Shown: piece by piece, positions 9,031 to 50,300 of the stretch
Position numbering within the stretch: position 1 is the stretch's first letter
Layout: each line of letters begins with the position of its first letter
Assembly (NCBI GenBank): GCA_035541755.1
Contig: DATKMQ010000066.1
Span: 1 to 64,000, forward strand
Length of the DNA stretch: 64,000 bases
Direction of reading: 5' to 3'
Origin: Syntrophorhabdaceae bacterium
Lineage (GTDB): Bacteria > Desulfobacterota > Syntrophorhabdia > Syntrophorhabdales > Syntrophorhabdaceae
Notes under the pieces: generated by a model
What the model was told of the DNA's origin: nothing
The model's input: the letters and a program-made list of their open reading frames with translations, nothing else
The model's database searches: none
Made by a program: the position numbers and the translations under genes

Positions 9031-9084
9031 CTGTTTTGCATTTTCGTTCGCGATTATATATTTAAGAAACCCAAAACATATTGA

Positions 9085-9112
9085 TTGACAATATCGTGTC
9101 TCGGTCTACAAT
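9085..9112 (+). promoter_or_regulatory. Sigma-70 promoter of the structured RNA
   Basis: A TTGACA -35 element at 9085-9090 and a TACAAT -10 element at 9107-9112, spaced 16 bp. The predicted start near 9119 falls on the first base pairs of the RNA's closing stem, so the promoter fits the RNA boundary. Confidence 0.65.
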
Positions 9113-9385
9113 AATATACAGGGAGGCACCGCTTCCCCATCAACCTATTGCTGGAAACAGCAAAAAGGAGGCTGCGCAATGAGTAAGTTGATAGCTTACT
9201 TAACGATGGGTAGGCGTTCGCAAGGTTCTGCACCCTTGAGGAAACAAGTGGAGGGGTAAGTGGATTAGTCACCCGCACCCCGAAGCACTTTCTCGACAGG
9301 CCATAACCGAGTGGCATCTCGAAAGAGGTGTTACGTAAGCGGCGAGTTGACTACTCGTTGGCTGCGTAGCGCCTCCCTGTATATT
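9113..9385 (+). ncRNA. Large structured RNA of unknown family upstream of a GIY-YIG gene
   Basis: A 15-bp perfect inverted repeat (9113-9127 with 9371-9385, arm sequence AATATACAGGGAGGC) encloses 243 nt with many internal helices. Two hairpins end in GAAA tetraloops: TTGCTG-GAAA-CAGCAA at 9148-9163 and CATCTC-GAAA-GAGGTG at 9315-9330. Further helices are CCCATC 9136-9141 with GATGGG 9205-9210, AGTAAG 9182-9187 with CTTACT 9195-9200, CAAGG 9221-9225 with CCTTG 9234-9238, GGGGT 9253-9257 with ACCCC 9277-9281, and CGAGT 9343-9347 with ACTCG 9353-9357. Two hairpin loops could form pseudoknots: TTGAT 9188-9192 with ATCAA 9139-9143, and TGACT 9348-9352 with AGTCA 9267-9271. It has its own promoter and ends 45 nt before the GIY-YIG start codon. 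I found no group I R/S core and no group II domain V. It could be a ribozyme, a guide-like RNA, a leader, or a miniature element with terminal repeats. Confidence 0.65.
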
Positions 9386-9430
9386 TTGTGGTTTTACAGA
9401 ATCAAAATTCCTAATAGCAAGGGGGGCTTT

Positions 9431-9748
9431 ATGGTGTGTAATTGGCCATTGGGTAATGGAGAAACCTTGGGGTTTACTGTGTATGATCCTAACGCCAACT
9501 GGAACCGGGTCGCTGGTCTGTATGTTTTTGCCTATAGAACAGACCCAACCCATTGGAAGGCCATGTACGTTGGGCAGAGCAACGATTTTAGTTCTCGTCT
9601 TCCTGCTCATGACCGATGGGATGAGGCAGCCCGACGTGGGGCAACACACATTCATGCTCTGGTAGTTCCGCTGGCGGCCAACCGGGACAATTGGGAGGAG
9701 ATGCTAATTCAACATCTTCAACCGCCGATGAACGCTCAACTTCGTTAG
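9431..9748 (+). CDS. Small GIY-YIG endonuclease-domain protein (105 aa)
   Basis: A stand-alone GIY-YIG nuclease domain. The family's core residues are visible: GLY at about residues 34-36 (GIY position), YVG at about 52-54 (YIG position), the catalytic arginine in the segment DFSSRL, the metal-binding glutamate in NWEEMLI and the late asparagine in PPMNAQL. All catalytic positions appear intact. It has no added DNA-binding domain, so the target is not evident. The start at 9431 follows a strong GCAAGGGGGG ribosome binding site 6 nt upstream. The structured RNA lies directly upstream on the same strand, which suggests co-transcription. Homing endonucleases, UvrC-like repair enzymes and mobile-element nucleases share this fold. 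Confidence 0.75.
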   Translation: MVCNWPLGNGETLGFTVYDPNANWNRVAGLYVFAYRTDPTHWKAMYVGQSNDFSSRLPAHDRWDEAARRGATHIHALVVPLAANRDNWEEMLIQHLQPPMNAQLR

Positions 9749-9781
9749 CTGGTTGCATATAAGATCGTCTCCTTTAATATC

Positions 9782-9809
9782 ATTGTAGCACATATGTTCT
9801 AATTGTCAA
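9782..9809 (-). promoter_or_regulatory. Leftward sigma-70 promoter with SOS-box-like operator in the spacer
   Basis: On the minus strand: TTGACA (9804-9809), a 16-bp spacer, then TACAAT (9782-9787). The spacer holds AGAACATATGTGCT, a near-palindrome of GAAC-N4-GTTC type. It points towards and antisense to the GIY-YIG gene. It is nearly the mirror image of the promoter at 9882-9910. Confidence 0.5.
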
Positions 9810-9881
9810 GCACAAACTGTATAATATGACAGTACGGCCGCGCTATCTATAACATACGATAGTTTAGTTAGCGTTTTAAGA

Positions 9882-9910
9882 TTGACAAAGTAGAACATAT
9901 GTTCTATAAT
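9882..9910 (+). promoter_or_regulatory. Rightward consensus sigma-70 promoter with palindromic SOS-box-like operator
   Basis: A perfect TTGACA (9882-9887), a 17-bp spacer and a perfect TATAAT (9905-9910). The palindrome AGAACATATGTTCT (9892-9905) fills the spacer and touches the -10 box, so a bound repressor would block polymerase. It matches the GAAC-N4-GTTC form of Gram-positive LexA boxes; whether LexA or another repressor binds here is unknown. The predicted transcript runs antisense to the gene at 9967-10275. Confidence 0.6.
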
Positions 9911-9966
9911 GGGGTTATGGTTAGCGTGAGTTGTTTGACGCTGAAGCTAAAAGTTCCCGAAAATCT

Positions 9967-10275
9967 CTATTGTACGAAAGGAGGTTTTTTGGGTGGTTCC
10001 CCTCTTTTTAGTACGCCTTGCTGTTCAAGCCCTCGGATCAGATTTTCAAGAGAGTTGTATAAACCGATAAAAGCGTCTGGAGGCATCACCATGCGGCAAA
10101 CTGGGTACCTTCTCCCAGTGGGTTTTTTAGGTGTTTGTGGCATATCCATTCTGGTAACACACAGTTCAATGCGAGCAGATTGGCCATCAAATGTAACCAA
10201 ACCAACGGAGTCAGCAAATGTCTCAGAAACATCCGGTAAGTCAATGTAACGGACAGCGTCGTCGGGGAGCCTCAT
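9967..10275 (-). CDS. Small conserved-looking protein, DUF3467-like (102 aa)
   Basis: A strong start is visible: the minus strand reads CATAGGAGGAAAACC before the ATG at 10275. The protein has alternating strand segments (GLVTFDGQSARIELCVTRMDMP), then PVCRMVMPPDAFIGLYNSLENLIRGLEQQGVL. This recalls DUF3467-type small proteins, in which a strand-rich part is followed by a final helix; that assignment is tentative. No membrane segment or signal peptide. It is transcribed opposite to the consensus promoter at 9882-9910, so the two transcripts would overlap over the whole gene. Function unknown. Confidence 0.65.
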   Translation of the reverse strand: MRLPDDAVRYIDLPDVSETFADSVGLVTFDGQSARIELCVTRMDMPQTPKKPTGRRYPVCRMVMPPDAFIGLYNSLENLIRGLEQQGVLKRGEPPKKPPFVQ

Positions 10276-10553
10276 GGTTTTCCTCCTATGACAGTTATTT
10301 GATCGTTGTCTATAAAGACAACATTTATAGATCAGATAAAGGAAGATGGAAGGCCATTAAGTAATTACAGTTCTTTCGCGGCCCACTCTCGATTGCGATT
10401 TACTATGATTTTATCATTAACGGGTAAAAGATCAATCGTTTTTTGTCCCCGGATAAAGACAAACACAACATTTATAATAAAGTAATCTCCTAACTACCCG
10501 ATTTCATTACAGTCAAATAGTTTCATTGTGCCCCCAACACGGCGATACGCTTT
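10276..10553. other. AT-rich intergenic region with a near-duplicated block
   Basis: It contains the hairpin GTTGTCT-ATAA-AGACAAC at about 10295-10312. The segment ATAAAGACAACATTTATA recurs as ATAAAGACAAACACAACATTTATA at about 10454-10477, which looks like a duplicated control site. No gene seen. Confidence 0.4.
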
Positions 10554-10820
10554 ATGGCCGACACAGCCAATAGCCCCAATTGGAACAAAGCTCAAACAGT
10601 TTTCCTTGAGAATGGGAACAAGCCGCTGAAACTATCTGAGCTTGAAACTGAATTCCGCAAACGCAATTGGCCGATCAGCGAGAAGAACGCCAGGGAGGTG
10701 CTTAGGGCTACCCTAAACAGCAAGCCGTCAATATTTGTATACAACAGGGAAGATTGTACATATAGGATAAAAATAGATCGTCCCGAAACGAGAGGCGGTG
10801 TTCATGAAATAAGATCATAA
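10554..10820 (+). CDS. Hypothetical protein, possible winged-helix type (88 aa)
   Basis: I do not recognise this protein firmly. It has an acidic-basic alternating pattern with a predicted helix-turn-helix-like run (KPLKLSELETEFRKRNWPISEKNAREVLRA is split across two helices) followed by a strand pair IFVYNRE and YRIKI. That layout recalls small winged-helix domains of the HARE-HTH kind, an inference only. The upstream bases lack a clear ribosome binding site, which lowers confidence in the exact start. A 14-bp hairpin follows the stop directly. Confidence 0.5.
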   Translation: MADTANSPNWNKAQTVFLENGNKPLKLSELETEFRKRNWPISEKNAREVLRATLNSKPSIFVYNREDCTYRIKIDRPETRGGVHEIRS

Positions 10821-10822
10821 AA

Positions 10823-10856
10823 AAAGAGGCTTTGTTCTGGTAAACAAAGTCTCTTT
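10823..10856. terminator. 14-bp hairpin after the 88-aa gene
   Basis: AAAGAGGCTTTGTT pairs with AACAAAGTCTCTTT around a 6-nt loop. The U-run expected for an intrinsic terminator is on the minus strand (six A on the plus side directly before the stem), so it should stop leftward transcripts best and rightward ones weakly. Confidence 0.65.
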
Positions 10857-10982
10857 CAAACCCTATTCCCACTTGCGTCAACAAGTGGTTAATCTATGCC
10901 CCACATTCATTAGGGCGCGTTTACGTCTATTACTAGTATAGCGTGCTTCCTAACTGATGTCAAGGGCAAAAGGAGGTACGCT

Positions 10983-11075
10983 ATGAAACAGCGTCAACCA
11001 ACCCGTAAGAAACATACGGGCAGACGGTTTGTCGTAAGGCCCACAAAGCCTGTCATGGTACGGAAGCGCCTGTAA
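10983..11075 (+). CDS. 30-aa highly basic small protein
   Basis: Strong gene signals for so short a frame: AAAGGAGG six bases before the ATG and an intrinsic terminator 20 nt after the stop. The peptide is rich in Arg and Lys (about 13 of 30 residues) with the clusters TRKKHTGRR and MVRKRL, no acidic residue and no membrane stretch. Such composition suggests nucleic-acid or ribosome binding; function is unknown. It is an independent unit, with a hairpin (CCACTTG with CAAGTGG, 10869-10888) about 95 nt upstream. It lies just downstream of the IS1595-type element, on the opposite strand. Confidence 0.6.
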   Translation: MKQRQPTRKKHTGRRFVVRPTKPVMVRKRL

Positions 11076-11095
11076 GGCATTAGCACAAACCAACG

Positions 11096-11125
11096 GGGAG
11101 AGCTTCGGCTCTCCCTTTATTTTTT
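11096..11125 (+). terminator. Intrinsic terminator of the 30-aa gene
   Basis: GGGAGAGC-TTCG-GCTCTCCC (11096-11115), an 8-bp stem with the very stable UUCG loop, followed by TTTATTTTTT. Classic rho-independent form on the plus strand. Confidence 0.9.
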
Positions 11126-11264
11126 ACCTTTTTTCTTTCTCGGTTCAGGTGCTGTAGCCAAAAGTCCCTTAAGCACGGAATCGAAATCAGCTTTTAAGAT
11201 TTCTTCTTCCTGTACTTCCTTTTCGCTCCCGTCCTCGGTCTTTGTTTTCTTTTCTTCAGTCAAA
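11117..11264 (-). pseudogene. Small ORF following the transposase, frame broken in an A5 run
   Basis: Directly after the transposase stop there is AAGGA, then TTG at 11264, which opens the frame LTEEKKTKTEDGSEK. That frame is lost at a run of five A on the minus strand (11220-11224). The neighbouring frame continues as VQEEEILKADFDSVLKGLL and ends KKKGKK at the stop 11117. Together they read as one charged protein of about 49 residues with a one-base slip. Small charged ORFs coupled to IS1595-type transposases fit this position. A real frameshift, a programmed slip or a base-call error are all possible. Confidence 0.4.
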
Positions 11265-11267
11265 TAA

Positions 11268-12158
11268 TCAGTCCTTGTACGTTAACCTTCTTCCTTCAAT
11301 TCCCTTAAGAGCCGCAACCGTCCGTGTCGCATCATTCTCATGTCTGTAATTATATCTCATATCGAACTCCGCAAGGTACCTGTGAAGGTGGTTGCTATCT
11401 ACATGATGATACACCCCTATTATACCACGTTTCAGAAGGCTGAAGTATCCTTCAACCGTATTCGTATGAACATCGCCGCGAGCGTATTCTTTTGCGCTGT
11501 GACAGACAGTCTCATGAGAAGCGAACTCACAACCCAATCCATTGTAAGAGCCGAATTCATCAGTCATGATCTTAGCGGATTTGTCAACGTTCTCCCTTAT
11601 GATCTGTTTAAGGTTCACGCTGTCTACGCGCTTAACTGGCATAGACCTGACTTTACCATTTCTCTCCACAAGGGCAAAGACGGGGGTTTTGTTGTCTGTA
11701 CCGCGCCCAGTCCCCCCGCCGCGAACCTTACCCCCGACATAGGTTTCATCGGCTTCAATGATCCCCTCAAGAAGCCTTGTAGGTCTTTGTCGCATAGCGA
11801 AACGGATACGGTGAGCCATAAACCACGCTGACTTATAGGTGACACCCAATGTTCTGTGCAACTGATGAGAGGACATACCCTTCTTGGAGGAACATAGTAG
11901 ATAGGTAGCCAACAACCACTTGTGTAAGGGTATGTGGCTACGCTCAAAGACCGTACCCACAGTCACGGAGAACTGTTTTCGGCACTCTTGGCATTTCCAC
12001 AGTCCTTTCCGGTGAGCATCACCTTGTAGACGATAGTGTGCCTCCCTACTACCGCAATGAGGACACACAACAACATCAGGCCAACGAAGTTTTTCAAGAT
12101 ATTCGCGCGCTTTTTCTTCGTCCGTAAAGTATGGAGCAGAAAACCCTATCTTTTCCAT
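11268..12158 (-). CDS. IS1595-family transposase (ISXO2-like, 296 aa)
   Basis: Transposase of an IS1595-group insertion sequence. The N-terminal zinc ribbon has the pairs CPHC and CQEC (about residues 31-65), used for DNA binding in this family. The ISXO2-like DDE domain follows: ADETYVGGK holds the first Asp, DEFGSYNGL the second, and the NTVEGYFSLLKRGIIGVYHH segment the family's C-terminal motif with the third acidic residue. The start at 12158 is set by GGAGGATATGAC upstream; an earlier ATG at 12188 has no such box. The frame is intact, so the element could be active. I could not identify terminal inverted repeats or the target duplication with certainty. Confidence 0.9.
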   Translation of the reverse strand: MEKIGFSAPYFTDEEKAREYLEKLRWPDVVVCPHCGSREAHYRLQGDAHRKGLWKCQECRKQFSVTVGTVFERSHIPLHKWLLATYLLCSSKKGMSSHQLHRTLGVTYKSAWFMAHRIRFAMRQRPTRLLEGIIEADETYVGGKVRGGGTGRGTDNKTPVFALVERNGKVRSMPVKRVDSVNLKQIIRENVDKSAKIMTDEFGSYNGLGCEFASHETVCHSAKEYARGDVHTNTVEGYFSLLKRGIIGVYHHVDSNHLHRYLAEFDMRYNYRHENDATRTVAALKGIEGRRLTYKD

Positions 12159-12178
12159 GTCATATCCTCCATACAGTA

Positions 12179-12207
12179 ATGATAGCACATGGTCTTGGGT
12201 TTGTCAA
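12179..12207 (-). promoter_or_regulatory. Promoter of the IS1595-type transposase
   Basis: Minus strand: TTGACA (12202-12207), 17-bp spacer, TATCAT (12179-12184), about 20 nt before the transposase start codon. Confidence 0.6.
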
Positions 12208-12566
12208 GTATATAATTGCGTTTTCGTTTGCCTGGTGATTTACCGCGATCTGTACGACAGATCCGCGGGGGCTCGCTAGCAATTTGCGGCGGTCATGCAC
12301 GTGAGCACGCGAGTCGATTTCCGTACCGGCTTCTTCACCGCTCTGCCTACCAATTGGGATCGCGCCACTCGCCATTACCCTGTTCTATACCGGGCTCAGT
12401 CCGATCCGTGCAGAAGCTTTTTTCTATTATGGATCTTCCTCCTTCAGAGAGAGATACGGCTATCGCCACCGCTCGCGTATAATCCCAGACCTTAAGGCCT
12501 GTACCTACCCGGTCGGAACGCACACAGATCTAAATAATGGGGGTTCATTTCTAGGTGTATGATCTC

Positions 12567-18039: not shown

Positions 18040-20814
18040 CTACTTCTTTTTGGCCTGAGCCTTTTTAGCCGGTTTGTCTTTTATGGCCGCCCGCGCAGCC
18101 GCCAGTTTCGCAATGGTTACCCGATAAGGCGAGCAGCTCACATAATTGAGCCCGACCTTGTGGCAAAACTCAACGGAATTGGGCTCGCCACCATGTTCCC
18201 CGCAGATGCCGCACTTCAAATTCTTCCGTGTGCCTCTGCCAAGGTCAACACCCATCTTCATGAGCTTGCCTACCCCGCCCTCATCAATCCTCTGGAAGGG
18301 ATCGAATGTGTAAATCTCCTTTTCCACATAAGGAACCAGGAATTTGCCTGCGTCGTCACGACTCATGCCCAGGGTTGTCTGTGTCAGATCGTTGGTGCCG
18401 AAGGAGAAAAACTCTGCTTCTGTGGCTATTTCATCCGCGGTAATGGCCGCTCTCGGTATCTCGATCATGGTGCCCACCATGTATTCGATCTTGGTTTTGT
18501 TGATTTTAAACACCTCTTCCGCCACCTTCACCACAACTTCTTTCTGGAGCGTGAGCTCTTTCACGTTGCCCACGAGCGGTATCATCACTTCCGGTTTCAC
18601 GTTGATGCCTTTCTTCTTCACCTCACAGGCGGCCTCGAAAATCGCCCTGGCCTGCATCTCTGTGATTTCCGGAAAAACAATGCCGAGCCGGCAGCCCCGG
18701 TGTCCCAGCATGGGGTTTGCTTCGTGGAGACTATCTATCTTTAGCTGCACTTTTTCGGCAGAAATGCCCATCTTCTGCGCCAGGTCCTGCACTTCCCTGT
18801 CGGTATGGGGAAGGAATTCATGGAGCGGCGGGTCGAGTGTCCTGATTGTAACAGGGAGCCCCTTCATAACTGTAAACAGACCCACGAAGTCTTTCCGCTG
18901 CATGGGAAGCAGCTTTTTCAAGGCCTCTACCCTGCCCGCCCGGTCTTCTGCGAGAATCATCTCGCGGACCGCATCAATCCGGTCGCCCTCGAAGAACATA
19001 TGTTCGGTGCGGCACAGGCCGATACCTTCAGCGCCGAATGCCACGGCAACCGCAGCCTGATCCGGCTGGTCGGCGTTCGTCCTGATGCCGAGTTTCCTTG
19101 CCTCGTCAGCCCACTTCATAAGCAGAGCAAAATCCTGATAAATCTTCGACTGTGCCGGCTTCAGGGTCTTTTCCAGGAGCACACGGAGGATTTCGGACGG
19201 TATTGTCTTGATCTGTCCGGCAAATACCTCTCCGGTTGTCCCATCGATAGAGACAAATTCACCTTCCCTGATGGCTTTATCCTTGACGCGGATGACCTTT
19301 TTTGCATAATCGATATCGAGTGAGCCGCAGCCGGCAACGCAGACCTTACCCATCTGACGGGCAACGAGCGCAGCGTGGCTCGTCATGCCCCCTCGAGAAG
19401 TGAGAATGCCCTGGGCCGCGTTCATACCCCGGATATCCTCCGGTGAGGTGTCGATCCTGACGAGGATCACCTGTTCCTTCCTTGCCGCCCAGGCTTCCGC
19501 GTCTTCGGCGCTGAAAACAACCTTACCTGCCGCGGCGCCGGGCCCCGCATTCAACCCTTTGGCCACCATGTCGCCGGCCTTCAATGCCCTCTCTTTTTCT
19601 TTGGGGTCAAAAATGGGGCGCAAAAGCTGATTGAGCTGATCGGGCTCCACACGCATAAGCGCCTCTTCTTTGGTAATGAGCTTTTCCTTTACCATGTCCA
19701 CAGCGATCTTGAAGGCTGCAAAAGCCGTTCTCTTGCCGGTCCTCGTCTGGAGCATCCAGAGTTTTTTGTTCTGAATCGTAAATTCCACGTCCTGCATGTC
19801 GCGGTAGCTCTTCTCCAGAATGTTCCTGATCTTGATTACTTCCTTATATATCCCGGGCCAGAGTTCTTCCAGAGACTTAACCGAGGCATCCGTTTTCTGT
19901 TTCTTGTTAATGGGGAGGGGCGTCCTGATACCGGCGACTACGTCCTCGCCCTGGGCGTTCACGAGATACTCACCATAGAATTCATTTTCACCGCTCGCAG
20001 GGTTACGTGTAAATGCCACGCCCGTGCCGCTTGTCTCACCCATGTTGCCGAAAACCATGCACTGAACATTGACAGCCGTTCCCCAATCGCCTGGGATATT
20101 GTTGAGCTCACGGTAGGCGATGGCCCGATCCGTGTTCCACGAGTTAAAAACCGCGCCGATAGCCCCCCAGAGTTGTTCGAAGGGGTCTTCGGGAAAACTT
20201 ATTTTCAATCTGTCTTTGATGGCCTTCTTGAAGCTCTCCACCAGGTCCTTAAGATCTGCTACGGTCAGTTCCGTATCAAACTTTATGCCTCTCGCCTTCT
20301 TCTTCGCATCGATGATCACCTCGAAGGGGTCGTGCTCTTCCTTGCTTTGCGGCTTAAGTCCCAAAACCACATCGCCGTACATCTGGACAAAGCGGCGATA
20401 GCAGTCATAAGCGAACCGCTCATTGCCGGAAAGACGCACGAGACCTGCTACGGTCTTTTCATTGAGTCCGAGATTAAGTACCGTGTCCATCATACCGGGC
20501 ATGCTGACCCGCGCGCCCGAACGCACAGAGAACAGAAGCGGATTCTGGGAATCGCCGAATTTCGAGCCCATGATCTTCTCCGTCTTCTTGAGGTTCTCCA
20601 GGACCTGCTCTTTGAGACCCTGAGGGAGCTTCATGCCGCCTTTGTAAAAGAGCGTGCATACCTCAGTCGTAATGGTAAACCCGGGCGGTACGGGGATACC
20701 CCGGTTGACCATATCGGCGAGCCCGGCGCCCTTGCCGCCAAGCAGGTTCTTAAGACCCATATTACCCTCTGCCTTGTTGCCCCCGAAAAAATAGACATAC
20801 TTCGCTTTTCCCAT
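18040..20814 (-). CDS. ppdK: Pyruvate, phosphate dikinase (924 aa)
   Basis: Interconverts pyruvate, ATP and phosphate with phosphoenolpyruvate, AMP and pyrophosphate. In anaerobes it can run in either direction, giving PEP for gluconeogenesis or saving ATP in glycolysis. The N-terminal ATP-grasp domain starts at FFGG with [10 protein letters not shown]. The swivelling phosphohistidine domain has [16 protein letters not shown] (catalytic His near residue 455). The TIM-barrel PEP domain has [19 protein letters not shown] and CGICGEHGG. The start at 20814 is set by AGGAGGATTGTT. The last 15 residues form an unusual Lys/Ala tail ([10 protein letters not shown]). It follows glyS closely. Confidence 0.96.
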
Positions 20815-50133: not shown

Positions 50134-50300
50134 GTGAGCTGTGATGTAAGTCCGATCTTCAAGGGAAGTGAAGTGGAAGACTTCTGCTGTCCCGCAACTG
50201 TGATGGGTTCACGGTTTCCCATGGTGAAAACCAGCCACTGTTCCGAAGTACGCTGAACGGGAAGGCTCGAACCGGAAGGCCCTCAGCCAGGAAACCTTGG
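50134..50300 (+). promoter_or_regulatory. Cobalamin riboswitch
   Basis: An adenosylcobalamin-type sensing leader. The conserved blocks occur in order: AAGGGAAG near 50160, CTGTCCCGCAACTGT near 50190, AGCCACTG near 50231, CGGGAAGGC near 50259, and the B12 box AGCCAGGAAACC at 50285-50296. It precedes the cobalt uptake and cobamide synthesis genes, the expected target. No U-run terminator follows, so control is probably at translation or by a long-range helix, an inference. Confidence 0.92.

Follow-up and report, generated by a model that had tools for sequence, protein, structure and literature searches.

The locus considered here raises the question of why a large folded RNA should lie directly in front of a gene for a GIY-YIG nuclease, and whether the two belong together. 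The locus was found in a contig of a Syntrophorhabdaceae bacterium, of which a stretch of 64,000 nucleotides, hereafter the window, was analysed. A sequence-only reading of positions 9085 to 9748 had suspected an RNA-associated mobile or defence module and had left three options for the RNA, namely a divergent ribozyme, a partner of the nuclease or a regulatory leader. The elements of this segment are the following:

9085 to 9112, + strand: sigma-70-like promoter TTGACA-16-TACAAT with 11/12 consensus bases, just inside a transposon end
9113 to 9385, + strand: structured RNA region closed by a 15-bp inverted repeat, delimited by fold statistics and the repeat
9166 to 9259, + strand: AGGAGG ribosome site (9166-9171) and 26-codon ORF (9179-9259; MSKLIAYLTMGRRSQGSAPLRKQVEG), a candidate leader peptide
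9431 to 9748, + strand: apparently intact gene for a single-domain GIY-YIG nuclease, P0001 (105 aa), assigned from its residues and an AlphaFold2 model

The consensus-like promoter that had been read in the sequence is present, and the region behind it is strongly folded, as had been proposed. The closing inverted repeat (arms 9113-9127 and 9371-9385) is perfect over 15 bp and is the only perfect inverted repeat of at least 15 bp with a loop of 100-400 nt in the window, whereas Markov sequences of the same size contained a mean of 0.07. By single-sequence statistics, the fold of positions 9119-9386 reached -113.4 kcal/mol (z -6.06), none of 200 shuffles was equally good and the region was the most extreme among 236 windows of 273 nt. 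The interior without its closing stem (9128-9370) gave a z of -3.99 on the + strand against -1.66 on the - strand, and values of -1.83 and -2.19 were obtained with DNA parameters; since the - strand and DNA-parameter folds are much weaker, the signal belongs to the + strand RNA. The predicted structure contains six or more internal helices, two hairpins carry GAAA loops (UUGCUG-GAAA-CAGCAA and CUC-GAAA-GAG), and two folds of almost equal energy compete in the centre of the RNA (9217-9313). The perfect closing stem of the sequence-only reading exists as a DNA repeat, but should be shorter in the transcript. The start of transcription is predicted at about 9118-9120, within the repeat, which extends 6 bp further upstream (AATATA/TATATT), so that an RNA made from the 9085-9112 promoter would retain only some 9-10 of the 15 bp. 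The closing stem is directly followed by the U-rich stretch UAUAUUUU. Inside the RNA, the ribosome site and start codon of the short ORF are spaced as AGGAGG-N7-ATG. On the + strand of the window, AGGAGG-N5-9-ATG was seen 7 times for 1.6 expected, and most of these sites are therefore probably real starts.

The nuclease gene begins 45 nt past the closing repeat, behind the Shine-Dalgarno-like AAGGGGGG, and the earlier description of an apparently intact gene is borne out by the residues that its product has kept: G29-L-Y31, Y46-V-G48, R56, H60, E89 and N101. Among these, G29, Y31, Y46-V47-G48, R56, E89 and N101 are invariant in four homologues. P0001 scored 13.8 bits with PF01541, under the cut-off of 22.6, and was likewise under the NCBIfam cut-off. 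The nine best PDB matches of its AlphaFold2 model (pLDDT 81) were UvrC GIY-YIG domains (TM 0.55-0.58), found by Foldseek with a probability of 0.99-1.00 and an E value of only 0.02-0.05. Judged from this model, P0001 has the GIY-YIG fold.

RNA region and gene together occupy the left end of an IS1595-family transposon that is complete and 3.17 kb long (9049-12220); it is bounded and mobilized by the following elements:

9041 to 9048 (strand not applicable): left copy of the target-site duplication, TTTTCGTT, identical to 12221-12228
9049 to 9078, + strand: left terminal inverted repeat, 24/30 against the reverse complement of 12191-12220
11268 to 12188, - strand: intact IS1595-family transposase, above the curated cut-offs of Pfam and NCBIfam
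12191 to 12220, - strand: right terminal inverted repeat, overlapping the transposase promoter
12221 to 12228 (strand not applicable): right copy of TTTTCGTT, completing a perfect 8-bp duplication

The transposase is an IS1595 (ISXO2-like) DDE enzyme with an N-terminal zinc ribbon, and scored 137.4 bits with PF12762 (cut-off 27), 60.4 with PF12760 (25.4) and 220.6 with NF033547 (75). A target duplication of 8 bp is the length generated by the IS1595 family. The 25-nt core pattern of the ends occurs in exactly two places in the window, in inverted orientation, at 9053 and 12216 (0 expected), from which the ends were extended to their true positions at 9049 and 12220. In the same genome, a second element with the same ends (G000:C88, 2719-4101) is flanked by TTCGGTTA; its transposase is truncated and 73% identical, its cargo is a HEPN-like gene (weak HEPN match), and a search with a covariance model of the RNA (R1) showed that the RNA region is absent from it. 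The same model did not find the RNA at 12 further loci around IS1595 transposases, and the relatives of the transposase in the phylum adjoin varied cargo, in no case with this RNA. The transposon ends, together with the differing and RNA-free cargo of the second element and of the relatives, establish that the RNA region and the GIY-YIG gene are cargo of one IS1595-family transposon. The suspected module is thus mobile, as cargo, but in a vehicle that the sequence-only reading had not seen, and this mobile element accounts for the adjacency of RNA and nuclease. The transposon shares with the IS1595 insertion sequences that carry passenger genes its transposase family, terminal repeats, 8-bp duplication and cargo beside the transposase, and differs from the relatives examined by a long structured RNA with a GIY-YIG gene, which was not seen in them.

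The fate of the RNA at homologous nuclease genes was analysed at 12 loci, five of them with close homologues of P0001 (L002, L003, L004, L005 and L044; 42-66% identical) and the others with more distant ones (L045-L051); homologues are rare, and none was found in the other 38 genomes of the host's family. The homologue of a Syntrophaceae genome (L002) lies near an IS1-type transposase and that of Iodobacter (L003, 66% identity) between attC-like sites, which points to an integron-type cassette. A GIY-YIG cassette has also been reported from an Aeromonas chromosomal integron (PMC10609294). These settings indicate that the GIY-YIG gene is cargo in several kinds of mobile context. The Iodobacter cassette contains a homologous stand-alone gene without a structured leader, whereas here the gene is transposon cargo behind one. 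In the viral contig L044, a second and different GIY-YIG-like ORF was noticed by eye directly downstream of the homologue (~940-1200). With R1, the RNA was absent from all 12 homologue loci. The upstream fold had a z of -5.8 at the P0001 locus and of -3.7 to +1.1 at the homologues, of which the two lowest correspond to a terminator-like stem (L002) and an attC-like stem (L003). The 14-bp palindromic stem upstream of the L002 gene (z -3.4) reads as an intrinsic terminator and is not matched by R1, and was thus rejected as the same RNA. Since homologous nuclease loci lack the RNA, an obligate RNA-nuclease partnership is not supported. The idea of an RNA partner or of a conserved RNA-nuclease module finds no support on this point, such RNA-free homologues having been named beforehand as evidence against it.

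Relatives of the RNA itself were searched more widely. Rfam, as had been suggested, was searched with the RNA up to E<=10 and returned no known RNA or intron family, apart from one weak match to sroE, which was discarded because it is antisense and sub-threshold (15.7 bits for 51 required). The earlier statement that no group I intron is recognisable is in agreement with this result. No riboswitch, leader RNA or aptamer of Rfam matched either, relaxed thresholds included. On 395 genomes of the phylum, R1 recovered the sequence itself and one 69-base match (G245, E 0.0036), which falls in an apparent alpha/beta-hydrolase coding gene and was not accepted as a relative. The model did not detect the RNA in 46 genomes of the class or in the order of G245, nor in the genomes of the five closest GIY-YIG homologues or in GIY-YIG loci. 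Comparison with phages, plasmids and E. coli by blastn gave matches of chance length only, and a 23-nt match in a genome of the same family (L008) lies within an open frame resembling an NtrC-type regulator and was rejected. Pattern scans of viral contigs that targeted the ends or internal segments, as well as a scan based on the antisense frame, yielded nothing or unrelated matches that R1 did not recognise. Neither the genomes nor the phage, plasmid, E. coli and viral-contig sequences searched provided an RNA homologue from which covarying pairs could be read. R1 was built from one sequence and used with strict filters, which makes it insensitive; the absence of relatives is for this reason weak evidence, and remote ones may be missed. 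As far as its sequence allows one to judge, the folded region is a real, strong and orphan structure within a known kind of mobile element.

The best explanation, to which we attach roughly even confidence, is that the RNA is a structured 5' leader which is transcribed from the transposon-end promoter and controls the GIY-YIG cargo gene in cis; the regulatory leader thereby remains the best of the three options of the sequence-only reading. The leftmost cargo would then form one transcription unit made of the end promoter, a structured 5' leader of ~310 nt and the GIY-YIG gene. The leader would fold, the AGGAGG site within it would allow translation of the 26-codon ORF, and either folding or leader translation would determine the accessibility of the nuclease ribosome site. 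GCCUCCC, the 3' strand of the closing stem, could pair with the 5' end of the leader or with the nuclease ribosome site (GGGGGGC). The argument is mainly positional: the RNA follows the end promoter and precedes the first cargo gene, whose start codon is 45 nt away, and neither a terminator nor a strong promoter intervenes. From the RNA to the gene, neither a promoter of at least 10/12 nor any site resembling a terminator was listed; a single promoter-like match of 9/12 has its end at 9385. The interior fold, being limited to the + strand RNA, fits a transcript rather than a DNA hairpin. Furthermore, the second element of the genome has a promoter at the same place just inside its left end, which drives its first cargo gene through a short leader, and we count this layout in favour of a leader here.

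The switch is offered as a proposal. Ensemble folding shows the closing stem and the pairing of its 3' strand with the ribosome site to be mutually exclusive and to replace each other with transcript length: in a transcript to 9450 their probabilities are 0.96 and 0.01, respectively, and in a transcript to 9500 they become 0.00 and 0.91. In its complementarity to the ribosome-site region the leader does not surpass shuffled leaders, 57% of which equalled it (24% when only the ORF part is considered), and the switch is consequently without statistical support. Simulated occupancy of the leader ORF by a ribosome did not open the ribosome site. Translational attenuators and riboswitch-type leaders show the same succession of promoter, folded leader and short ORF with a strong ribosome site, and the same potential to pair alternatively with the ribosome site downstream; here, in contrast, there is no known aptamer, the switch is putative and the complementarity does not exceed chance. 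We infer co-transcription, translation of the leader peptide, the switch and the role of the nuclease. Against a leader, the fold is more elaborate than a simple one needs.

Such a compact closed fold with paired ends and its own promoter could also belong to an independent small-RNA gene among the cargo, which would act in trans and be no more than a neighbour of the GIY-YIG gene. The U-rich UAUAUUUU after the closing stem, the strongest fold signal of the 64-kb window and the occurrence of the GIY-YIG gene elsewhere without the RNA are compatible with this possibility. We consider it unlikely, as the 3' end of the RNA has no intrinsic terminator, no copy was found in the genomes or collections sampled, and read-through is favoured by the short distance and by the GIY-YIG gene having no strong promoter of its own.

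Rather improbable, in our estimation, is the insertion of a MITE-like element into the leader. The 261-bp element would have 9-bp ends (CAGGGAGGC...GCCTCCCTG) and would have entered at the TA of a palindromic target, AATATATATT, in the manner of IS630/Tc1. TA dinucleotides indeed flank the segment, the closing repeat runs on for 6 bp upstream of the predicted start, where RNA pairing could not select it, and removal of the segment restores a normal short leader between promoter and gene, like that of the G000:C88 element. Against this, whole-segment searches gave no further copy in the genome itself or in 99 relatives, no element with the same ends was present in the viral contigs, and the interior folds strongly as + strand RNA and not as DNA, a property that MITE ends leave unexplained.

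It is doubtful that the RNA is the first seen member of an undescribed class of large structured RNAs on IS1595-type transposons, acting in trans or as a catalyst; such a class might, for example, control transposition or work with cargo proteins.

Very little credit is left for the idea that the RNA guides or otherwise partners the GIY-YIG protein, or that this protein mobilises it as a divergent ribozyme capable of self-splicing or self-cleavage. Adjacency and the multi-branched fold with tetraloops had suggested such roles, and GIY-YIG enzymes do travel with group I introns, in which a structured RNA likewise lies beside the GIY-YIG gene. At the present locus, however, no intron or ribozyme model of Rfam matched at E<=10, the RNA has a promoter on one side and the first cargo ORF on the other and is not inside a host gene, it is not kept with the GIY-YIG homologues, and the IS1595 transposase and ends already account for mobility. 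P0001 consists of a single catalytic domain (105 aa), and an additional RNA-binding domain is not obvious in it. HEARO/OMEGA RNAs with IscB or TnpB are also transposon-borne, with paired ends and an adjoining nuclease gene, but here Rfam gave no match, the nuclease is a single GIY-YIG domain and the element contains no RuvC-like nuclease. The locus is not a demonstrated RNA-guided or defence system.

A type III-like toxin-antitoxin pair, in which the RNA would neutralise a toxic GIY-YIG protein, shares the order of RNA and protein gene behind one promoter and is most improbable, in view of the absence of listed tandem repeats in the RNA, of a ToxN-like protein and of a terminator between RNA and gene, and of the homologous genes without RNA.

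Provided that the RNA is real, the cargo of IS1595 transposons can include elaborate structured leaders or RNAs in addition to proteins, and single-copy RNAs of such a kind would be invisible to family-based searches. Nor does strong folding next to a nuclease gene by itself imply an RNA-guided system.

To the right of the nuclease gene, the transposon contains further promoters and cargo:

9782 to 9809, - strand: promoter TTGACA-16-TACAAT overlapping a LexA-like box (9787-9800), directed so as to read the GIY-YIG gene and the RNA in antisense
9882 to 9910, + strand: promoter TTGACA-17-TATAAT (12/12 consensus) with the LexA-like box AGAACATATGTTCT (9892-9905)
9967 to 10275, - strand: 102-aa cargo ORF with no family match
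10554 to 10820, + strand: 88-aa cargo ORF, winged-helix-like by eye, with no family above cut-off
10983 to 11075, + strand: very basic 30-aa cargo ORF, MKQRQPTRKKHTGRRFVVRPTKPVMVRKRL, with an AGGAGG ribosome site and a strong terminator downstream (11095-11116)

The basic 30-aa ORF has a weak match (53% over 17 aa) near the GIY-YIG homologue of L005. A promoter nearly identical to that at 9882-9910 is present at the left end of the G000:C88 element. LexA-like boxes (AGAACATATGTTCT and variants) are situated between the -35 and -10 hexamers of several promoters of both transposons (9785-9911; L016, ~604-1985), that of the G000:C88 transposase also having one, and the G000:C88 element is inserted just upstream of lexA (Pfam LexA_DNA_bind and Peptidase_S24). 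Judging from these boxes, the SOS response may induce both cargo and transposase. On the strand opposite the GIY-YIG gene, a 56-codon ORF (9588-9758, - strand) has a good promoter with a LexA-like box and an AAAGGAG ribosome site, and DNA damage could conceivably lead to antisense transcription across both the nuclease gene and the RNA. A LexA-like box, CGAACATATGTTCT, is also found at 18993-19006, inside a pyruvate phosphate dikinase-like ORF.

On both sides of the transposon, in a gene-poor stretch, GATACAAATCACA occurs seven times for 0.06 expected (8900, 9013, 12582, 12786, 13118 and 13213 on the + strand, 15539 on the - strand). The copies lie within repeats of ~55 nt whose TTGAT-ACAA-ATCAC resembles a CRP/FNR-type site, and these are possibly a repeated regulatory or REP-like element. 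Elsewhere in the window, a cobalamin riboswitch (Rfam RF00174, 60.7 bits) was identified at 50162-50297 on the + strand.
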